64,000 nucleotides of DNA. Origin: Candidatus Avimonas faecium. Its GTDB lineage: Bacteria; Bacillota; Clostridia; Oscillospirales; Acutalibacteraceae. The DNA lies in NCBI GenBank assembly GCA_904419005.1, contig CAJFQI010000003.1:1-64000 (forward strand). The letters are read 5' to 3'. Below the pieces are notes generated by a model, which did no database searches, was not told where the DNA came from, and was given only the letters and a program-made list of their open reading frames with translations. The position numbers were made by a program, and so were the translations under genes. Below are positions 3,388 through 11,091 of this stretch, in pieces. Positions within the stretch are counted from its first letter, which is position 1. Each line of letters begins with the position of its first letter.

Positions 3388-6300
3388 TCACCAGACCGGT
3401 GCGACCAGCCGGTGCGAGGAGCTGGCGGTGATCGAGAAATAATGGCTGAGGATCCGCTTATAATCCCAATTTTCGTATTTGGCGTACCCGGCGGCCCCCA
3501 GCTGGCTGAGTCCCACGCAGTGCCCATTGCCCCGCGTGCGGATCGTGACCGTTTCCCCGTCGTCCGAGACGGTAAAGGCGGGGGAGCGCAGCCCCAGGGC
3601 GGCGAAAAGCCGCCCGCCGGTAAGCTGCCTGGACACGCCGCTTTTGTCCACATAGGTAATGCTGAGCGACAGGGGATAGGTTTCATAGGGATCCCAGCGC
3701 GTAACCTCCACCGTGTCGCCGAAGGCTACCTCCGGGTCGTATCCCGCATCCGAGCCGCGCAGGTAGGCCGCGATTTCCTCGGCGAGCTCCTCCCGCGTGC
3801 CGGTGTAGGAAACCCTCTCCCATACCTGGCTGGAATCCAGCTCCCGGATGGTTTTTTCGTTATCGTATTTGCTGACGACGCCGCTGTAGGGCAGCTTGAG
3901 GACGTTGACATACTGGTTATCCGCCGTTGCGCCGGGGGAGAAGGCAAAATACGGCGTGTAGACGGGGCTGCCGTTGGAAAGGATTTTGATCCCCGCCACC
4001 TCGCCGACCGCGTCGTAGATCGCCCGGTCGTTGGCGTTGGAAAGGTCCAGCGGTTTCAGGGACATTTCGGGGATGGCCTTTTCCACTTGATTGGAATAGA
4101 GGATCGTGGTGTATGCGGCGATCGCCTGCGCCTTTTGGGCCTGCATATACCCCTCGGTCCCCGGGGTGCCGAAGGTGAAGGATTTGCCCAGTTCGGTTTT
4201 CACAATCCGCGCCAGCAGCATCTGCAGCTCTTCCCGGCTGTCCGGCTCGATCTTGACGCCGGTCGTTGTGTCAATCACCCGGCAATACTGCAGATAATAG
4301 CTTTCCTGCCGCGAACCGGCGAGCACCGGCGGAACGGCACCGTCCGGCTCCGTCGGCGGGGACGTGGTCGAGGTTGTCCCGGTGGAGCCGTTCGTATCCG
4401 TGGCCGTGCCGCTGTCGGTGGAGGTTGTTGTCGGCCGTTCGGTCGTTGTAGAGGTAGACCCGCTGGAGGAAGAAGAGGGCCGGGAGGTATCCGGGGCCGT
4501 GGTGCTTTCGGTGGTGGTGCCCGAAGCCGGCGCGGAGGACGGCAGCTCGGACACCGGCTCGGTCAAGGTGGTGGAGACCCCGCTCTCCGAGCTGGAAGAA
4601 GTCTCGTCAAGCGGGTCGGTGCCGCGGGTAATGGCCGATCCGCCCAGGTGGCTGGCTGAGGTGCTGTCGGCGGCAGAGGACTGCCCCTTCCAGCCGCCCG
4701 GCATGACGGCGCTGCTGTTGTAGGTGACGCCGCCCAGATCGGCCGTCTCGCTTTCCCCGTCCCGCACCTGGCGGGCCGCAACCACCAGGTAGGCGCCGTC
4801 AAACCCGGCGACGTCCGAAAAGGGGGTGGCGAGCAGCAGCAGGGAATCCCCCTCCTGGATATCCACCACCCCGTCGGGGTAGGAATACAGCGACCGGACG
4901 CGGATCCCGCCGGCAAAGCCCAAAAAGTCGGTTTCATCCGCAAAGGTATTGCGGGTGAAGTCGAAGTCGCCGCCCTTGGGTGAAGCGGCCACCATAACCG
5001 AAAAAATTTTCCATTTGGCATTCCGGTACAAGGTATTCATCTCTATCACCGGATGGCTCCGCAGGAAGCTTAGATCGTTGTAATAATTGGTCAGGTCGGA
5101 GAACATCTGCCCGCCGCCTGCGTTATTGCCGTAGATCACCAGCGACCGGTTGACCGAGTCGGCGGAAACCAGCGCCGCACTGGTATCAAAATACGGGACG
5201 CCGTAGATGGAATACTGCCGGTCAAAATTGTGGCTGCGGTAAAAGTTCTGGCTGTCTCCCCGCATTACCGGGTAGTTGATATTGGTCCCTTCAATTTTCA
5301 GCCAGCCCCGCACGTCGCTGTTGCGCGCGTACAGCGCGTTGAACTGGGAAAGCATTCCGTCCGGCGCGTATGCCAGCTCGCTTTCAATCACAGAGGGGTT
5401 GTCGACATCGTACAGCTCGGTCAGCTGGTTATACAGCCTTTGGTTGTTCAGCGGCTGGAATACATACAGGTACAGCACGGTTGCCGCCATGGCGATCAGC
5501 AGGAGGAACACGGCCAAGATCGCGCATTTGCGCACGATCTCCCCCCGCCCGTCCCCCTTCCAGGGGAAGACGGCCCGCAGGAAGTGCTTCCTGCGGGGCG
5601 GCGCCACGGCAGCCTCTGGGATTTCGGCCGGCGCGGGCTCGGCGGGGGAAAGGAGGGGTTCCCCGCCCGCCATGACGGTGGGCAGCGCCTCGAGGTACCG
5701 GCGCACGAGGTCGAGCGCGTGGGAAACGGCGAGGTACCGGACATATTCCCGGTCAACCGCGCCCTCCTTGGTGTCAATCTTTTTGACCCAGACCCGCTTT
5801 TCATCCGCCAGGGCGACGTATACCGTCCCGACGGGCTTGCCTTCGCTGGTGTCCGGCCCGGCCACGCCGGTGATGCCTACCCCAAGCTGCGCGCTGCCCA
5901 CCCGGCGGGCCCCCACCGCCATAGCCCGGGCGGTTTCGGGGCTGACCGCCCCATAGCGTTCCAGCGTTTCGTTGGGGACGCCCAGGACGTTGTGCTTGAT
6001 CTCCTTGGAATAGGCGGCAATGCCGCATTCAAAAACGGAGGAAACGCCGGCCACCTCGGTCAGGCGGCTGGACAGCAGGCCCGCGGTACAGGATTCCGCC
6101 GTAGCGATCTTCATCTGCTTGTCCAGCAGCAGGGCGACGACCGCCTTTTGCAGGCTCCCGACGTCGACGCCGTAGACGTTGACCCCCAGCCGGCGGCAGA
6201 TTTCGTCTACCACCGGCGCGCACAGCGCGAGCGCGTCGGCCCGGTTCGCGGCATGGGCCGTGACCCGCAGGATTGCCTCCCCGTCCTTGGCGTACAGGGC

Positions 6301-6918
6301 GACGTTGGGGTTGGCCTCGCTCATCAGGTCGGCCAGCCGTTCGGTCAGCACGGCCTCCGTCAGGCCGAACACCCCTACGGTGCGGGAGACGATCGTCCCG
6401 CCTGCACAGTTTGAGAGGTATGGGGCCACATAGTCGCTGAACATCGGCATCAGCTCCCGCGGCTCCCCGGGCAGGAGGAAAATCTGCTGCCCGTACCGGC
6501 TGACCGCGCAGCCGGGGGCGGTGCCGTGGTCGTTGGGGAAGACCGCTGCGCCGCGGGGGAGACGGGCCTGCTTTTCCGCATCGGGCGGCAGGGGGCGGCA
6601 GGTGTTGACAAAATACTCCTTGATCCGCTCGTAGCTGTCCTCATGCAGCTCAAGGGGCAGGGAAAGCTCCTGCGACACCACCTCAAGGACGCTGCCGCCC
6701 TGCTCCTGCCCGAGCCCGCCGGCCAGGACCACCAGGTCGCTCCGGCCCAGGGCGAGCCGCAGCGCCTGCCGCACGGAGGCCTCGTCGGCCCCCACGGCGG
6801 AAACCTGCGTCACCTCAATGCCGAAGGCAGCCAGCTCATGGGACAGGAACTGGCCGCTGGTATTGGCCGTGCTGCCGAGAACCAGCCCGGCGCCTACGGT
6901 GATGATTTCTGCATTCAT
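3388..6918 (-). CDS. CinA (COG1058 + NMN deamidase-like) - TM - degenerate class B sortase - Ser/Thr-rich linker - SpoIID/LytB domain fusion
   Basis: Single ORF; start MNAEIITVGAGLVLGSTANTSGQFLS at 6918 preceded by GGAGGAG. CinA-C motif ATAESCTAGLLSSRL...GITGVAGPDTSEGKPVGTVY; TM KCAILAVFLLLIAMAATVLYLYVF; sortase-like LNNQRLYNQLTELYD...VIYGNN...LLATPFSDVAGFDGAYLVVAAR; linker; SpoIID IVKTELG...AQKAQAIAAYTTI and RGNGHCVGLSQLGAAGYAKYENWDYKRILSHYF. Confidence 0.9.
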   Translation of the reverse strand: MNAEIITVGAGLVLGSTANTSGQFLSHELAAFGIEVTQVSAVGADEASVRQALRLALGRSDLVVLAGGLGQEQGGSVLEVVSQELSLPLELHEDSYERIKEYFVNTCRPLPPDAEKQARLPRGAAVFPNDHGTAPGCAVSRYGQQIFLLPGEPRELMPMFSDYVAPYLSNCAGGTIVSRTVGVFGLTEAVLTERLADLMSEANPNVALYAKDGEAILRVTAHAANRADALALCAPVVDEICRRLGVNVYGVDVGSLQKAVVALLLDKQMKIATAESCTAGLLSSRLTEVAGVSSVFECGIAAYSKEIKHNVLGVPNETLERYGAVSPETARAMAVGARRVGSAQLGVGITGVAGPDTSEGKPVGTVYVALADEKRVWVKKIDTKEGAVDREYVRYLAVSHALDLVRRYLEALPTVMAGGEPLLSPAEPAPAEIPEAAVAPPRRKHFLRAVFPWKGDGRGEIVRKCAILAVFLLLIAMAATVLYLYVFQPLNNQRLYNQLTELYDVDNPSVIESELAYAPDGMLSQFNALYARNSDVRGWLKIEGTNINYPVMRGDSQNFYRSHNFDRQYSIYGVPYFDTSAALVSADSVNRSLVIYGNNAGGGQMFSDLTNYYNDLSFLRSHPVIEMNTLYRNAKWKIFSVMVAASPKGGDFDFTRNTFADETDFLGFAGGIRVRSLYSYPDGVVDIQEGDSLLLLATPFSDVAGFDGAYLVVAARQVRDGESETADLGGVTYNSSAVMPGGWKGQSSAADSTSASHLGGSAITRGTDPLDETSSSSESGVSTTLTEPVSELPSSAPASGTTTESTTAPDTSRPSSSSSGSTSTTTERPTTTSTDSGTATDTNGSTGTTSTTSPPTEPDGAVPPVLAGSRQESYYLQYCRVIDTTTGVKIEPDSREELQMLLARIVKTELGKSFTFGTPGTEGYMQAQKAQAIAAYTTILYSNQVEKAIPEMSLKPLDLSNANDRAIYDAVGEVAGIKILSNGSPVYTPYFAFSPGATADNQYVNVLKLPYSGVVSKYDNEKTIRELDSSQVWERVSYTGTREELAEEIAAYLRGSDAGYDPEVAFGDTVEVTRWDPYETYPLSLSITYVDKSGVSRQLTGGRLFAALGLRSPAFTVSDDGETVTIRTRGNGHCVGLSQLGAAGYAKYENWDYKRILSHYFSITASSSHRLVAPVW

Positions 6919-7033: not shown

Positions 7034-8212
7034 TCAAATCAAGCGGCGGCGGACGTTTTGAACCGCTTCGCTGATCAGAGCCTCGGCGTCCAGGGCCGCT
7101 TCCGCTTCCAACACCTTCGCCAGCTTGGGGCGGGTGCGGGGATGGCGGGGGGTGAAGACGGTGCAGCAGTCCTCATAGGGCTGGATGGAGATATCAAAGG
7201 TGTCAATCCGGCGGGACACGGCGATGATTTCCTCTTTATCCATGCCGATGAGGGGGCGGAAAACCGGCAGCCCGGCGGCCGCGTCGGTACAGGCCAGGGC
7301 GGGGATGGTCTGGCTGGCCACCTGCCCCACGCTCTCGCCGGTGATCAGGGCGCCGCAGTCCTCCGCCTGCCCGATTTGGGTGGCGATGCGCATCATGAAC
7401 CGGCGCATGATGATGGTGAACAGATCCTCCGGGCAGCTGCGCTGGATCTCCTCCTGGATCCGGGTGAAGGGGACGATATGCAGGTCGATATGCCCCGCGT
7501 AGGCGGCGACCTTTTCCAGCAGGGCGATCACCTTGCCCTCGGCCCGCTCGCTGGTATAGGGCGGGGAAGCGAAATGGATGCCGCACAGCTCCACCCCCCG
7601 CTTGGCCATCATGTAGCCCGCCACCGGGGAGTCGATCCCCCCCGAGATCAGCAGCCCGGCCCGGCCGGCGGAGCCCACCGGCATCCCGCCCGCGCCCGGG
7701 AGCTGCCGGGCGTGGATATACGCGCCGAAGTCCCGGATTTCCACCATCACCAGCAGCTCGGGATGGTGGACGTCGACCGTCAGGTGGGGGTATTTCTCCA
7801 GCAGGTAGCCGCCTGCCTGCTCGCAGATCGCCGGGGACTGGAGCGGGAAGGCTTTGTCGCTCCGCTTGGCCTCCACCTTGAAGGTTTTGGCGGCCAGCAG
7901 GTCGTCCCGCAGGTAGGAGGCGGCGGCTTCGCAGATCGCGCCGATCTCTTTTTCCACGACGCAGGCGCGGCTGAAGGCCGCGATGCCGAAGACCTTGGCC
8001 ACCCGGTCGCAGGCCTCGTCCATATCAAAGGCCGGGCCCTCCGGCTCCACATAAATGGCGGACTGCGCCTTGCGCAGCGTGCAGGGGCCGAGCGGCCGCA
8101 GGCGGTACCGCAGGTTTTTCATCAGGATGGCCTCAAAGGTGCCGCGGTTCAGGCCCTTCAGGGCCAGCTCCCCGGTTTTGATCAGCAGGATTTCACGGGC
8201 AGATGGGTTCAT
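7034..8212 (-). CDS. thiI: tRNA 4-thiouridine synthase ThiI
   Basis: MNPSAREILLIKTGELALKGLNRGTFEAILMKNLRYRL; THUMP region; SGGIDSPVAGYMMAKRG PP-loop; ITGESVGQVASQT. Longer upstream part of ORF 7034..8773 overlaps the sortase tail out of frame. Confidence 0.97.
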   Translation of the reverse strand: MNPSAREILLIKTGELALKGLNRGTFEAILMKNLRYRLRPLGPCTLRKAQSAIYVEPEGPAFDMDEACDRVAKVFGIAAFSRACVVEKEIGAICEAAASYLRDDLLAAKTFKVEAKRSDKAFPLQSPAICEQAGGYLLEKYPHLTVDVHHPELLVMVEIRDFGAYIHARQLPGAGGMPVGSAGRAGLLISGGIDSPVAGYMMAKRGVELCGIHFASPPYTSERAEGKVIALLEKVAAYAGHIDLHIVPFTRIQEEIQRSCPEDLFTIIMRRFMMRIATQIGQAEDCGALITGESVGQVASQTIPALACTDAAAGLPVFRPLIGMDKEEIIAVSRRIDTFDISIQPYEDCCTVFTPRHPRTRPKLAKVLEAEAALDAEALISEAVQNVRRRLI

Positions 8213-8267: not shown

Positions 8268-9899
8268 TTACGCCGCGGCCGGATCGTCGGTTTCCGGCCC
8301 GCCCCCGCTTTCGGGCGGCGGCGCGGTGGTGTCCTCCGGCTCCGCCGGTTCGCTCGGCTCCGGCTCGGAGGGCGGCTCCGTCGTGTCCTCCGGCGGCGGG
8401 CTGACCGTGGTGGTTGTGGTGCTCGTCGTCGGGGGAAGGGTGGTCGTGGTGGTCGTAGTCGTTGCGGAGGCCGGCGGCTGGATGGTCGTGGTGGTCGTTG
8501 GCGGCGGCACAATGATCGGGGAGGTCTGGGAAGCGGTCGCCGTGCTGGTCGTGGTGGTTGTGGTCGTGGTATAGGGGGTGGTGGTGCCGGTCGCCCCGCT
8601 GTTCGGGATTGTGTAATCGCCGGTATAGAAGGGGTGCAGCTCGAGATCCTGGTTGATATACCAGGCCTGCGGCATGATAACGTCCTCGTTTTTGACGATG
8701 GAATAGACGTTGACCTCGGCGCTTTCGCCCTCCCGCACCTTGCGGGCGACCACCACGCAGCGGCCGTCCTCAAATTTTGCGCCGCTGGGGGCGGTGCAGG
8801 TGGAGAGGATCAGCAGCTCGTCCTCGGCGGCCACGTCGACATCCCCGTAATCAAACAGGGAGCGGGCGCGGATGTTGGCCACAAAATCCAGGAAATCGGC
8901 GTCCCCCGCAAACGCGGTGCGCAGGTAATCAAAGTAGGGGCCATCCTCGGCCCGGGTGTTGAGCAGCATGACGGCGAACACCTTGTACTGGGAGCGCTCA
9001 TACAGCGTATCCAGGCTGATCACCGGCGCGGAGCGGGCGTAGCTGAGCCCGTAGGTGGTGTTCAAAAAATTGTTGAGCCTGGCGAACATATGCCCGCTGG
9101 CCATATTGTGGCCGTAGACAATCAGCGCCTTGTTCTCGGAATCCGGCGAGTCGATGTGGTTGCGCTGGTCAAAGAAGAGGGCGCCGTCCTTATGCTCGGC
9201 CTTTTGAAAGTTGTGGGTTAAGTAGTAGCTGTTGTCGCCGGAATACATGACGGGGTAGTCGATATCCAGCCAGCTCCCGTCGGCATCGGCGTAGGTCATC
9301 CAGCCCCGGATGTCGGAATTCTGGGCATACAGCGCCTTAAAGGCGTCCATAATCCCCTCCGGGTAATTGGAGGGGTCGTAATCGGCAGGGGGGGCGACCG
9401 GGTTGTCGGGGTCGTAATCCTGCCGCACCTTCTCATAGCTGATCTCGCCGATCGCCGGCTGGATCACCATGTCGTTGACGATATAGGAGGCGGAGACGAT
9501 GAGGGTGATCAGCGCCACCATGAACACGCATTTGCGGACGATTTCCAGCCCGGAATCCCCCCGGTGGGGGACAAAGCCGCCCAGGAAATAGAGCACGCGG
9601 TCCACAAAGCGGCGGGGGCCGGAGCGGGGATCGGGCGTTTCCGGGGCGGGGGCCTCCTCCGGCGCCGAAGCGTCCGGCCCGGGAGCCGCCGGCTCGGGCG
9701 CAGCCGGGCCCTCGGGAGAGGGAGCGCCGTCCGGGTCCTCTTGTCCCTGCGGGGAGGGCTGCGCCGCGCGGGCCGCCCGGGCGCGCAGGATTTCATCCAG
9801 CGTGATATCCGCTTCGTCCCGGGGCGGCGTGTCCGGGCGCCCTTCGGGGGCGGGGACGCCCTCCGGCGTCCTTTTTCCCTCTTGCGGAGAGTTTGCCAT
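8268..9899 (-). CDS. Class B sortase with intact catalytic motifs, long cytosolic Pro/Ala-rich N-terminus and Thr/Pro-rich C-terminal tail
   Basis: VIYGHNMASGHMF (His), LLILSTCTAPSGAKFEDGRCVVVAR (Cys, Arg); TM VFMVALITLIVSASYIV; tail TTTTTTTTSTATASQTS...PPPTTTTT. Start MANSPQEG after GAAAGGA. Confidence 0.93.
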   Translation of the reverse strand: MANSPQEGKRTPEGVPAPEGRPDTPPRDEADITLDEILRARAARAAQPSPQGQEDPDGAPSPEGPAAPEPAAPGPDASAPEEAPAPETPDPRSGPRRFVDRVLYFLGGFVPHRGDSGLEIVRKCVFMVALITLIVSASYIVNDMVIQPAIGEISYEKVRQDYDPDNPVAPPADYDPSNYPEGIMDAFKALYAQNSDIRGWMTYADADGSWLDIDYPVMYSGDNSYYLTHNFQKAEHKDGALFFDQRNHIDSPDSENKALIVYGHNMASGHMFARLNNFLNTTYGLSYARSAPVISLDTLYERSQYKVFAVMLLNTRAEDGPYFDYLRTAFAGDADFLDFVANIRARSLFDYGDVDVAAEDELLILSTCTAPSGAKFEDGRCVVVARKVREGESAEVNVYSIVKNEDVIMPQAWYINQDLELHPFYTGDYTIPNSGATGTTTPYTTTTTTTTSTATASQTSPIIVPPPTTTTTIQPPASATTTTTTTTLPPTTSTTTTTVSPPPEDTTEPPSEPEPSEPAEPEDTTAPPPESGGGPETDDPAAA

Positions 9900-9951: not shown

Positions 9952-11091
9952 TTATCGTGTGCGCCGGATCAGGGTGGCGGCGGCGTCGCGCAGGGCGTCA
10001 AGGAGCCGGTCCACCTCCTGCGGCGTGGTGGTATGCGTAAAGCTGACCCGCAGGGCGGAGTCGATCCGCGGGGCGGGCAGGCCGAGCGCGGTCAGCACCG
10101 GGCTCTTTTTGCCCTTGGAGCAGGCCGAGCCGCTTGAGACAAAGACGCCGCGCTCCGCCAGGAAGTGCAGGAGGGTTTCGCTGCGGATCCCCGGCGCCGA
10201 CAGGTTGAGGATGTACGGGACGGCGCCCTCCGGGGAATTGACGGTAAAGCCGTCCAGCCCGGCCAGGCCGTCGGTCAGCTGCTGATGCAGGCGGAGGTAA
10301 AGCGCCTCCTGCTCGTCAAACGGAGGCAGCGCCTCCGCCGCCGCGCCGAAGGCGGCGTGCAGGGGGACGGCCTCGGTGCCGGGGCGCAGCCCACGCTCCT
10401 GGCCGCCGCCGAAGACGCGGGGCAGCAGGCGCACCCCCTTGCGGATATATAAGGCGCCCGAGCCTTTCGGCCCGTGGATTTTGTGGGCGCTGACCGTCAT
10501 CAGGTCAAGATCCCACCGTGCCGCGCGCAAAGGCAGCTTACCGGCCGCCTGCACCGCGTCGCAGTGCAGCAGCGCGCCGGGGGCGGCCCTGCGGACGGCG
10601 GGCGCCATCTGCTCGACAGGGAAACGGGCGCCGGTTTCGTTGTTGACCATCATGATGCTGACCAGGACGGTGTCCGGCCGGCAGGCGGCGGCGATTTGCG
10701 CCGCGCTCAGCGTCCCGTCCGGGCCGGGAAGCAGGCGGGTAATCTCCCACCCCTGGCGCTCCAGCTCGCCGCAGGCGGCGGCGACTGAGGCGTGCTCCAC
10801 CGCTGTGGTGACGATGTGGCGGCCGGCCCGCTTTTTGGCCTCCGCCGCCCCGAACAGGGCGAGGTTGTTGGCCTCCGTCCCGCCGGAGGTAAAGACGATT
10901 TCTTCCGGCCGGCAGCCGATCAGGCGGGCCACCTTCTGCCGGGCGGCGTCCAGCTCCCGCTCCGCCGCCGCGCCCAGCGAGTGGAGGGACGACGGGTTGC
11001 CGAAGCAGGAGGTCATCATTTCCAGCGCCTTCTCCGCGGCCTGCGGGCAGACCCGGGTGGTGGCGCTGTTGTCCAGATAAGCGATGTCCAA
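9952..11091 (-). CDS. Cysteine desulfurase (NifS/IscS family)
   Basis: MDIAYLDNSATTRVCPQAAEKALEMM; VFTSGGTEANNLAL; SAHKIHGPKGSGALYIRKG (PLP Lys); SSGSACSKG (Cys loop). Confidence 0.97.
   Translation of the reverse strand: MDIAYLDNSATTRVCPQAAEKALEMMTSCFGNPSSLHSLGAAAERELDAARQKVARLIGCRPEEIVFTSGGTEANNLALFGAAEAKKRAGRHIVTTAVEHASVAAACGELERQGWEITRLLPGPDGTLSAAQIAAACRPDTVLVSIMMVNNETGARFPVEQMAPAVRRAAPGALLHCDAVQAAGKLPLRAARWDLDLMTVSAHKIHGPKGSGALYIRKGVRLLPRVFGGGQERGLRPGTEAVPLHAAFGAAAEALPPFDEQEALYLRLHQQLTDGLAGLDGFTVNSPEGAVPYILNLSAPGIRSETLLHFLAERGVFVSSGSACSKGKKSPVLTALGLPAPRIDSALRVSFTHTTTPQEVDRLLDALRDAAATLIRRTR

Follow-up and report, generated by a model that had tools for sequence, protein, structure and literature searches.

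A sortase domain that has lost its whole catalytic triad is carried, between a CinA protein and a SpoIID-like domain, by one gene of Candidatus Avimonas faecium. The gene lies in a stretch of 64,000 nucleotides (hereafter the window) of a 95%-complete draft genome in 107 contigs. Judged from its sequence, the domain belongs by ancestry to the SrtB family and by its defining residues is no sortase enzyme. The most probable reading, though a tentative one, is that of an anciently fixed pseudosortase, serving as a membrane-proximal positioning module for a SpoIID glycan cutter near the active sortase.

The fusion gene (3388..6918, complementary strand, as are all window features below) is one open frame of 1176 amino acids, and AGGAGG precedes its ATG start. 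Matches to CinA (NF001813, E 2.5e-122), SrtB (TIGR03064, E 3.9e-30) and SpoIID/LytB (TIGR02669, E 1.6e-18) all fall within this frame. The CinA part (5689..6918, residues 1-410) is full-length, with MoCF, KH and PncC domains (Pfam PF00994, PF18146 and PF02464), and passes the NF001813 equivalog cut-off with 408.8 bits vs 379. It is followed by a single transmembrane helix (5461..5526), read from the sequence as the hydrophobic stretch CAILAVFLLLIAMAATVLYLYV preceded by basic residues. The predicted topology has the N-terminus inside, which would make the CinA part cytoplasmic. The pseudosortase (4741..5460, about residues 487-726) is extracytoplasmic and of class B sortase fold, all of its PDB sequence matches being SrtB. 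A Ser/Thr-rich linker (roughly 4234..4740), probably disordered and taking in the end of the sortase C-terminal segment, leads to the SpoIID/LytB-like domain of the lytic transglycosylase family (3391..4233, TIGR02669), the parts of which stand in normal order. Genus relatives encode the same CinA-sortase-SpoIID fusion. At one locus (L013, G011:C92) it is divided into two overlapping frames within CinA, of 420 and 889 amino acids, probably through a frameshift or an assembly error. The genes of the window cluster are transcribed in the order cysteine desulfurase of IscS/NifS type (9952..11091), intact class B sortase (8268..9899), tRNA 4-thiouridine synthase ThiI (7034..8212), fusion. ThiI, between both sortase genes, and the desulfurase are conserved neighbours with functions assigned by resemblance.

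The catalytic triad consists of His116, Cys209 and Arg217 in C. difficile SrtB (PMC5118464) and of H140, C233 and R243 in B. anthracis SrtB (PMC11987632). The original prediction, made from the window alone, had placed Asn and Pro at the His and Cys positions. Both codons, AAT at 5125..5127 and CCC at 4822..4824, are confirmed and align with the catalytic His and Cys both in the paralogue and in the solved SrtB enzymes. The motif of the paralogue itself had been misread as VIYGHN; the actual sequence is ALIVYGHNMASGHMF. The Arg of VVxAR (CGC, 4771..4773) is retained, as had been proposed, and its supposed catalytic role is ruled out by alignment to the C. difficile and B. anthracis enzymes, where it falls opposite K249 of the latter. 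Alignment to both sets the catalytic Arg at 'GAY-LVVAAR', that is, at a Tyr in the window (TAC, 4789..4791). The true Arg ('GAR-LVV') is present in most orthologues, and the nearest relative has Gln. The window pseudosortase lacks the full His-Cys-Arg triad, with Asn, Pro and Tyr in its place. There is no Cys in the extracellular sortase domain, the sole nearby one being at the start of the transmembrane helix, and an ectodomain without Cys makes a rearranged thiol active site impossible. An alternative Cys/His active site is thereby ruled out. Such a pair, or orthologues keeping His and Cys, had been named beforehand as observations that would speak against the prediction; no pair is present, and the orthologues lack both residues. 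There is strong support for the proposed lack of transpeptidase function, all the more since the catalytic Arg is lost besides His and Cys; the window domain is expected to be without transpeptidase activity.

The comparison of 76 sortases gave 55 that keep the His, 21 that lack both His and Cys, and no intermediates. Where their sequences extend over the Cys and Arg positions, the 55 retain these residues as well. Both residues are absent from all 12 genus members sampled, the His being replaced by Asn, Ser or Lys and the Cys by Pro, Asp, Ser, Asn, Gly or Glu. They are also absent from four relatives, namely the same fusion in genome G034, a CinA-fused copy (L039) and, from G028 and Clostridiales bacterium 43-6, proteins joining a sortase to SpoIID. 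As the loss is common to all 12 members, both a sequencing error and a mutation confined to one strain are ruled out; these orthologues also speak against a recent mutation, which is rejected. The His and Cys columns were left out of the alignment for the maximum-likelihood tree, in which these 16 dead sortases form one clade (support 98/84); its sister group consists of intact sortases from the same genus and from close relatives (99/84). Five further dead sortases (L113, L118, L125, L127 and L145) lie outside it. The tree requires at least six changes of state, five of them forced by well-supported branches, the exact number of losses being made unsure by long branches such as L113. A single origin for all 21 dead sortases is rejected by the AU test (p 5.6e-51). 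The further losses, in the same thiI-cinA-sortase neighbourhood, are independent and mostly without decay of the remaining parts.

Pairwise dN/dS within the genus, for the pairs measured, is 0.09-0.28 in the dead domain vs 0.08-0.22 in the intact paralogue, so the dead domain is retained by selection and is not decaying. Conservation within the dead clade is uneven, the GxxGQMF segment and the VVxAR Arg being nearly fixed. Loss of catalytic residues with fold and selection kept across species marks a pseudoenzyme, and all of this is observed here. One of the copies outside the clade (L145:3648-6344, genome G244) is a diverged CinA fused to a sortase with the triad changed to Ser-Pro-Tyr; the same genome has a second, intact cinA elsewhere (L144). 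This dead sortase reaches 170 bits, where the cut-off of the class B sortase model is 153.75, and would therefore be annotated as active, which is a warning for annotation.

The AlphaFold2 model of the pseudosortase, obtained with a 41-row alignment, has pLDDT 90.2 and pTM 0.89. The best 19 PDB matches returned by Foldseek are all class B sortases, headed by 2oqw (E 1.2e-19, target-normalised TM 0.89). The predicted fold is the SrtB beta-barrel with its N-terminal helix. In the model of the whole ectodomain, pLDDT of the linker is below 50 over most of its length, pTM is 0.46, and no confident packing of the sortase and SpoIID domains is seen. The model suggests that the domains are joined by a flexible, disordered tether.

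Mutating L106 (L106A), Y191, S231 or R243 abolishes the activity of B. anthracis SrtB (PMC11987632). All four positions are changed in the window: Arg (CGC, 5236..5238) stands at L106, in the pocket for the sorting-motif Pro; Phe (TTC, 4957..4959) and Ala (GCC, 4828..4830) at the P4 pocket positions Y191 and S231; and Tyr at R243. The Leu that packs on the motif Pro is found in 53 of the 54 active sortases compared. Of the 16 dead-clade members, 15 have a polar or charged residue there, and L039 alone has Leu. Y191 is kept in 13 of these 16, S231 in 11 and R243 in 12. With its pocket residues changed, the window protein is unlikely to bind canonical xPxTG motifs, and the NPxT-type peptides earlier suggested as a ligand are disfavoured. 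For all relatives taken together, xPxTG binding is less clearly disfavoured than for the window protein and may still occur.

The intact paralogue has the complete His-Cys-Arg triad, an N-terminal transmembrane segment and a Thr-rich C-terminal tail. It and the pseudosortase are the only two SrtB homologues found in the genome. Their TIGR03064 scores are 140.2 and 104.9 bits, respectively, both below the SrtB equivalog cut-off of 153.75. Most genomes with a dead sortase encode an intact one in the same cluster, and at some loci (L118, L131) no intact sortase stands beside the dead one. The own genome encodes anchor proteins of xPxTG type with the motifs NPDTG, SPSTG, MPKTG and VPETG (L192 C16, L196 C1, L197 C28, L199 C18), which are plausible clients of the live sortase. 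A simple scan detected no cell-wall sorting signals within the 64-kb window. The anchor motifs are varied, though just one intact SrtB was found in the genome.

The catalytic Glu of C. difficile SpoIID is E101 (PMC6221140). The fused domain of the window retains the aligned Glu (4192..4194), invariant in 15/15 fusions, and a profile of 15 fused ectodomains matches C. difficile SpoIID (5txu, E 1e-38). The window domain fails TIGR02669 with 67.6 bits vs a cut-off of 83.3, while the related fusions L112 and L050 pass with 134.7 and 137.2 bits; in the conserved motif the window has GHC, not GHG. Because of the score and of this change, the predicted glycan-cutting activity of the window domain, derived from the one catalytic Glu, is probable but uncertain. 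A separate canonical SpoIID (351-aa frame, G000:C27) and SpoIIP are encoded elsewhere in the genome, so the fused domain is probably not the sporulation enzyme. Among linked loci, sortases fused to SpoIID are dead in 15/15 cases, and most of the linked sortases that are not part of such a fusion are intact. In five relatives (L115:6142-8535, L117:2497-4878, L127:9696-11096, L128:3805-6129 and L130:1475-3883) the SpoIID domain is seemingly circularly permuted: the GYGHGVGMSQ segment (profile about 210-265), normally C-terminal, precedes the catalytic half (about 5-215). An apparent dockerin-like repeat, GDANMDGVVTASDARYVLR, was noted by eye in the L127 protein.

ThiI adjoins cinA in 65 of the 80 relative loci examined, and a sortase is present in the cluster at 30 of the 80, either encoded separately or, in 14, fused to CinA. 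SpoIID genes occur at 10 of the 30 loci with a sortase vs none of the 50 without, an association that is partly a matter of selection, as the first 20 of the 80 loci were picked as matches to the fusion. Several relatives have a SpoIID protein with a degenerate CinA-like N-terminus adjoining an intact CinA gene, and profile comparison supports the degenerate CinA (99%, E 3e-18; 96.7%, E 3.7e-10). Degenerate CinA-like domains without GGLGPT and AESCTAG were seen in L112:4431-7370, L113:3729-6650, L050:2185-4848, L115, L117, L125, L126, L127, L128 and L118:5841-6806, encoded next to an intact CinA or a PncC-type protein. With degenerate CinA and dead sortases both found at these loci, dead versions of both recur. 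Four of the relatives (L115, L117, L128 and L130) encode a related membrane protein with the order degenerate CinA, transmembrane helix, linker and SpoIID, without a sortase domain.

According to the preferred reading, the fusion would span the membrane, CinA lying on the inner side and both the pseudosortase and the SpoIID domain on the outer. The pseudosortase would hold the glycan-cutting domain near the membrane on its flexible Ser/Thr tether, at the position where the active sortase of the cluster may work on the wall. Its contact would most likely be this active sortase or a peptidoglycan component, not xPxTG motifs. The binding or scaffold role originally proposed for the domain is a fair inference from the confident SrtB fold and the purifying selection; the NPxT-type ligand proposed with it is the part given up. 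The SrtB fold, the loss of the triad with no Cys left in the ectodomain, the clade, the dN/dS values, the SpoIID Glu, the finding that all linked sortases fused to SpoIID are dead, the intact sortase in the cluster, the anchor proteins in a genome with just these two SrtB homologues, the partly selected restriction of SpoIID genes to loci with a sortase, and the tether all speak for a positioning module. Against it stand the lack of confident packing (pTM 0.46), the prediction of SpoIID activity from one residue and the possibility that selection acts on folding alone. A wider reading, which we hold with rather low confidence, is that the thiI-cinA-linked clusters of this bacterial order encode a membrane-spanning wall-remodelling complex of live and dead CinA and sortase. 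It would contain live CinA and live sortase together with a chain that has a dead CinA and/or sortase and carries the SpoIID cutter; the dead sortase would dock and couple anchoring to local glycan cutting, and CinA would give metabolic or regulatory input.

The domain might instead be a passive spacer, a folded stalk left from an ancestral sortase-SpoIID partnership that binds nothing and is kept since misfolding would harm the fusion. The four relatives without a sortase domain show it to be dispensable in related proteins, but the uneven conservation, in which GxxGQMF and the Arg of VVxAR hardly vary across the clade, and the repeated appearance of dead sortases in the same neighbourhood, the rest of them mostly undecayed, leave a passive stalk rather improbable. 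By analogy with other pseudoenzymes, the dead sortase could also pair with the active one of the cluster as a heteromer and switch or aim it. Active and dead paralogues share a cluster in most genomes with the dead one, and their clades are sisters; the dead sortases of L118 and L131, which no intact one adjoins, count against such a partnership, and we regard it as unlikely. Still less likely is a chaperone or decoy for sorting signals that would bind xPxT motifs without cutting them, as has been proposed for SipA in pilus assembly. SipA is a dead signal peptidase of streptococcal pilus loci, which require it alongside a class B sortase to assemble the pilus; its active site is dead and its cleft kept (PMC4049620). 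In favour of such a role, the genome encodes anchor proteins, and 12 of the 16 clade members keep the catalytic Arg, the residue that positions the peptide. The Leu of the Pro pocket, however, is lost in 15 of 16, and the window residues at L106, Y191, S231 and R243 are all changed (PMC11987632). Other chemistry by the replacing residues (Asn, Ser or Lys and Pro, Asp, Asn, Gly, Glu, Thr or Ser) is very improbable: Asn is the commonest replacement of His, but the replacements vary freely between close species, and the nucleophile is replaced by Pro or Gly in some. That the loss is recent damage or an artefact of sequencing or assembly, conceivable in a draft genome of 107 contigs, has a negligible probability given that the same loss in 12/12 genus genomes comes with differing residues, that complete fusion copies are open frames of 1139-1265 aa and that dN/dS is well below 1.

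Sortases are studied as drug targets and as protein-ligation tools and, to our knowledge, the sortase fold has been taken as an enzyme wherever found. An ancient clade without the triad, together with repeated further losses in one neighbourhood, suggests that the fold has a job beyond catalysis. Since one small cluster holds both an active and a dead sortase, what the dead one does can be tested directly. Dead sortases are pseudoenzymes, which are a known kind; this fusion is absent from the literature searched, as nothing relevant on pseudosortases or CinA-sortase fusions came up in the open-licence PMC papers, and it may be described elsewhere.

Compared with known systems, the pseudosortase resembles the SrtB enzymes of B. 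anthracis (2oqw), S. aureus (4lfd) and C. difficile (5gyj) in fold, N-terminal membrane helix, length and overall sequence. It differs from them in lacking His, Cys, Arg and the Pro and P4 pocket residues and in being fused to CinA and SpoIID. CinA, or nicotinamide-nucleotide amidase, is usually a stand-alone cytoplasmic protein, whereas in the fusion it is held at the membrane and joined to wall enzymes. The C-terminal domain shares the catalytic Glu and the GHxVGxSQ motif with SpoIID lytic transglycosylases (C. difficile 5txu and 5i1t; also 4rwr) and, unlike sporulation SpoIID, is anchored through a pseudosortase. The surroundings of the fusion contained no recognisable pilus locus. SipA belongs to another enzyme family and has kept its peptide cleft; the fusion has an altered sorting-motif pocket and does not share the conserved substrate cleft without catalysis. 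SipA may nonetheless be regarded, by analogy, as the closest functional precedent: both are secretion-pathway pseudoenzymes encoded with a class B sortase, in which the catalytic residues have been replaced and the fold has been kept.
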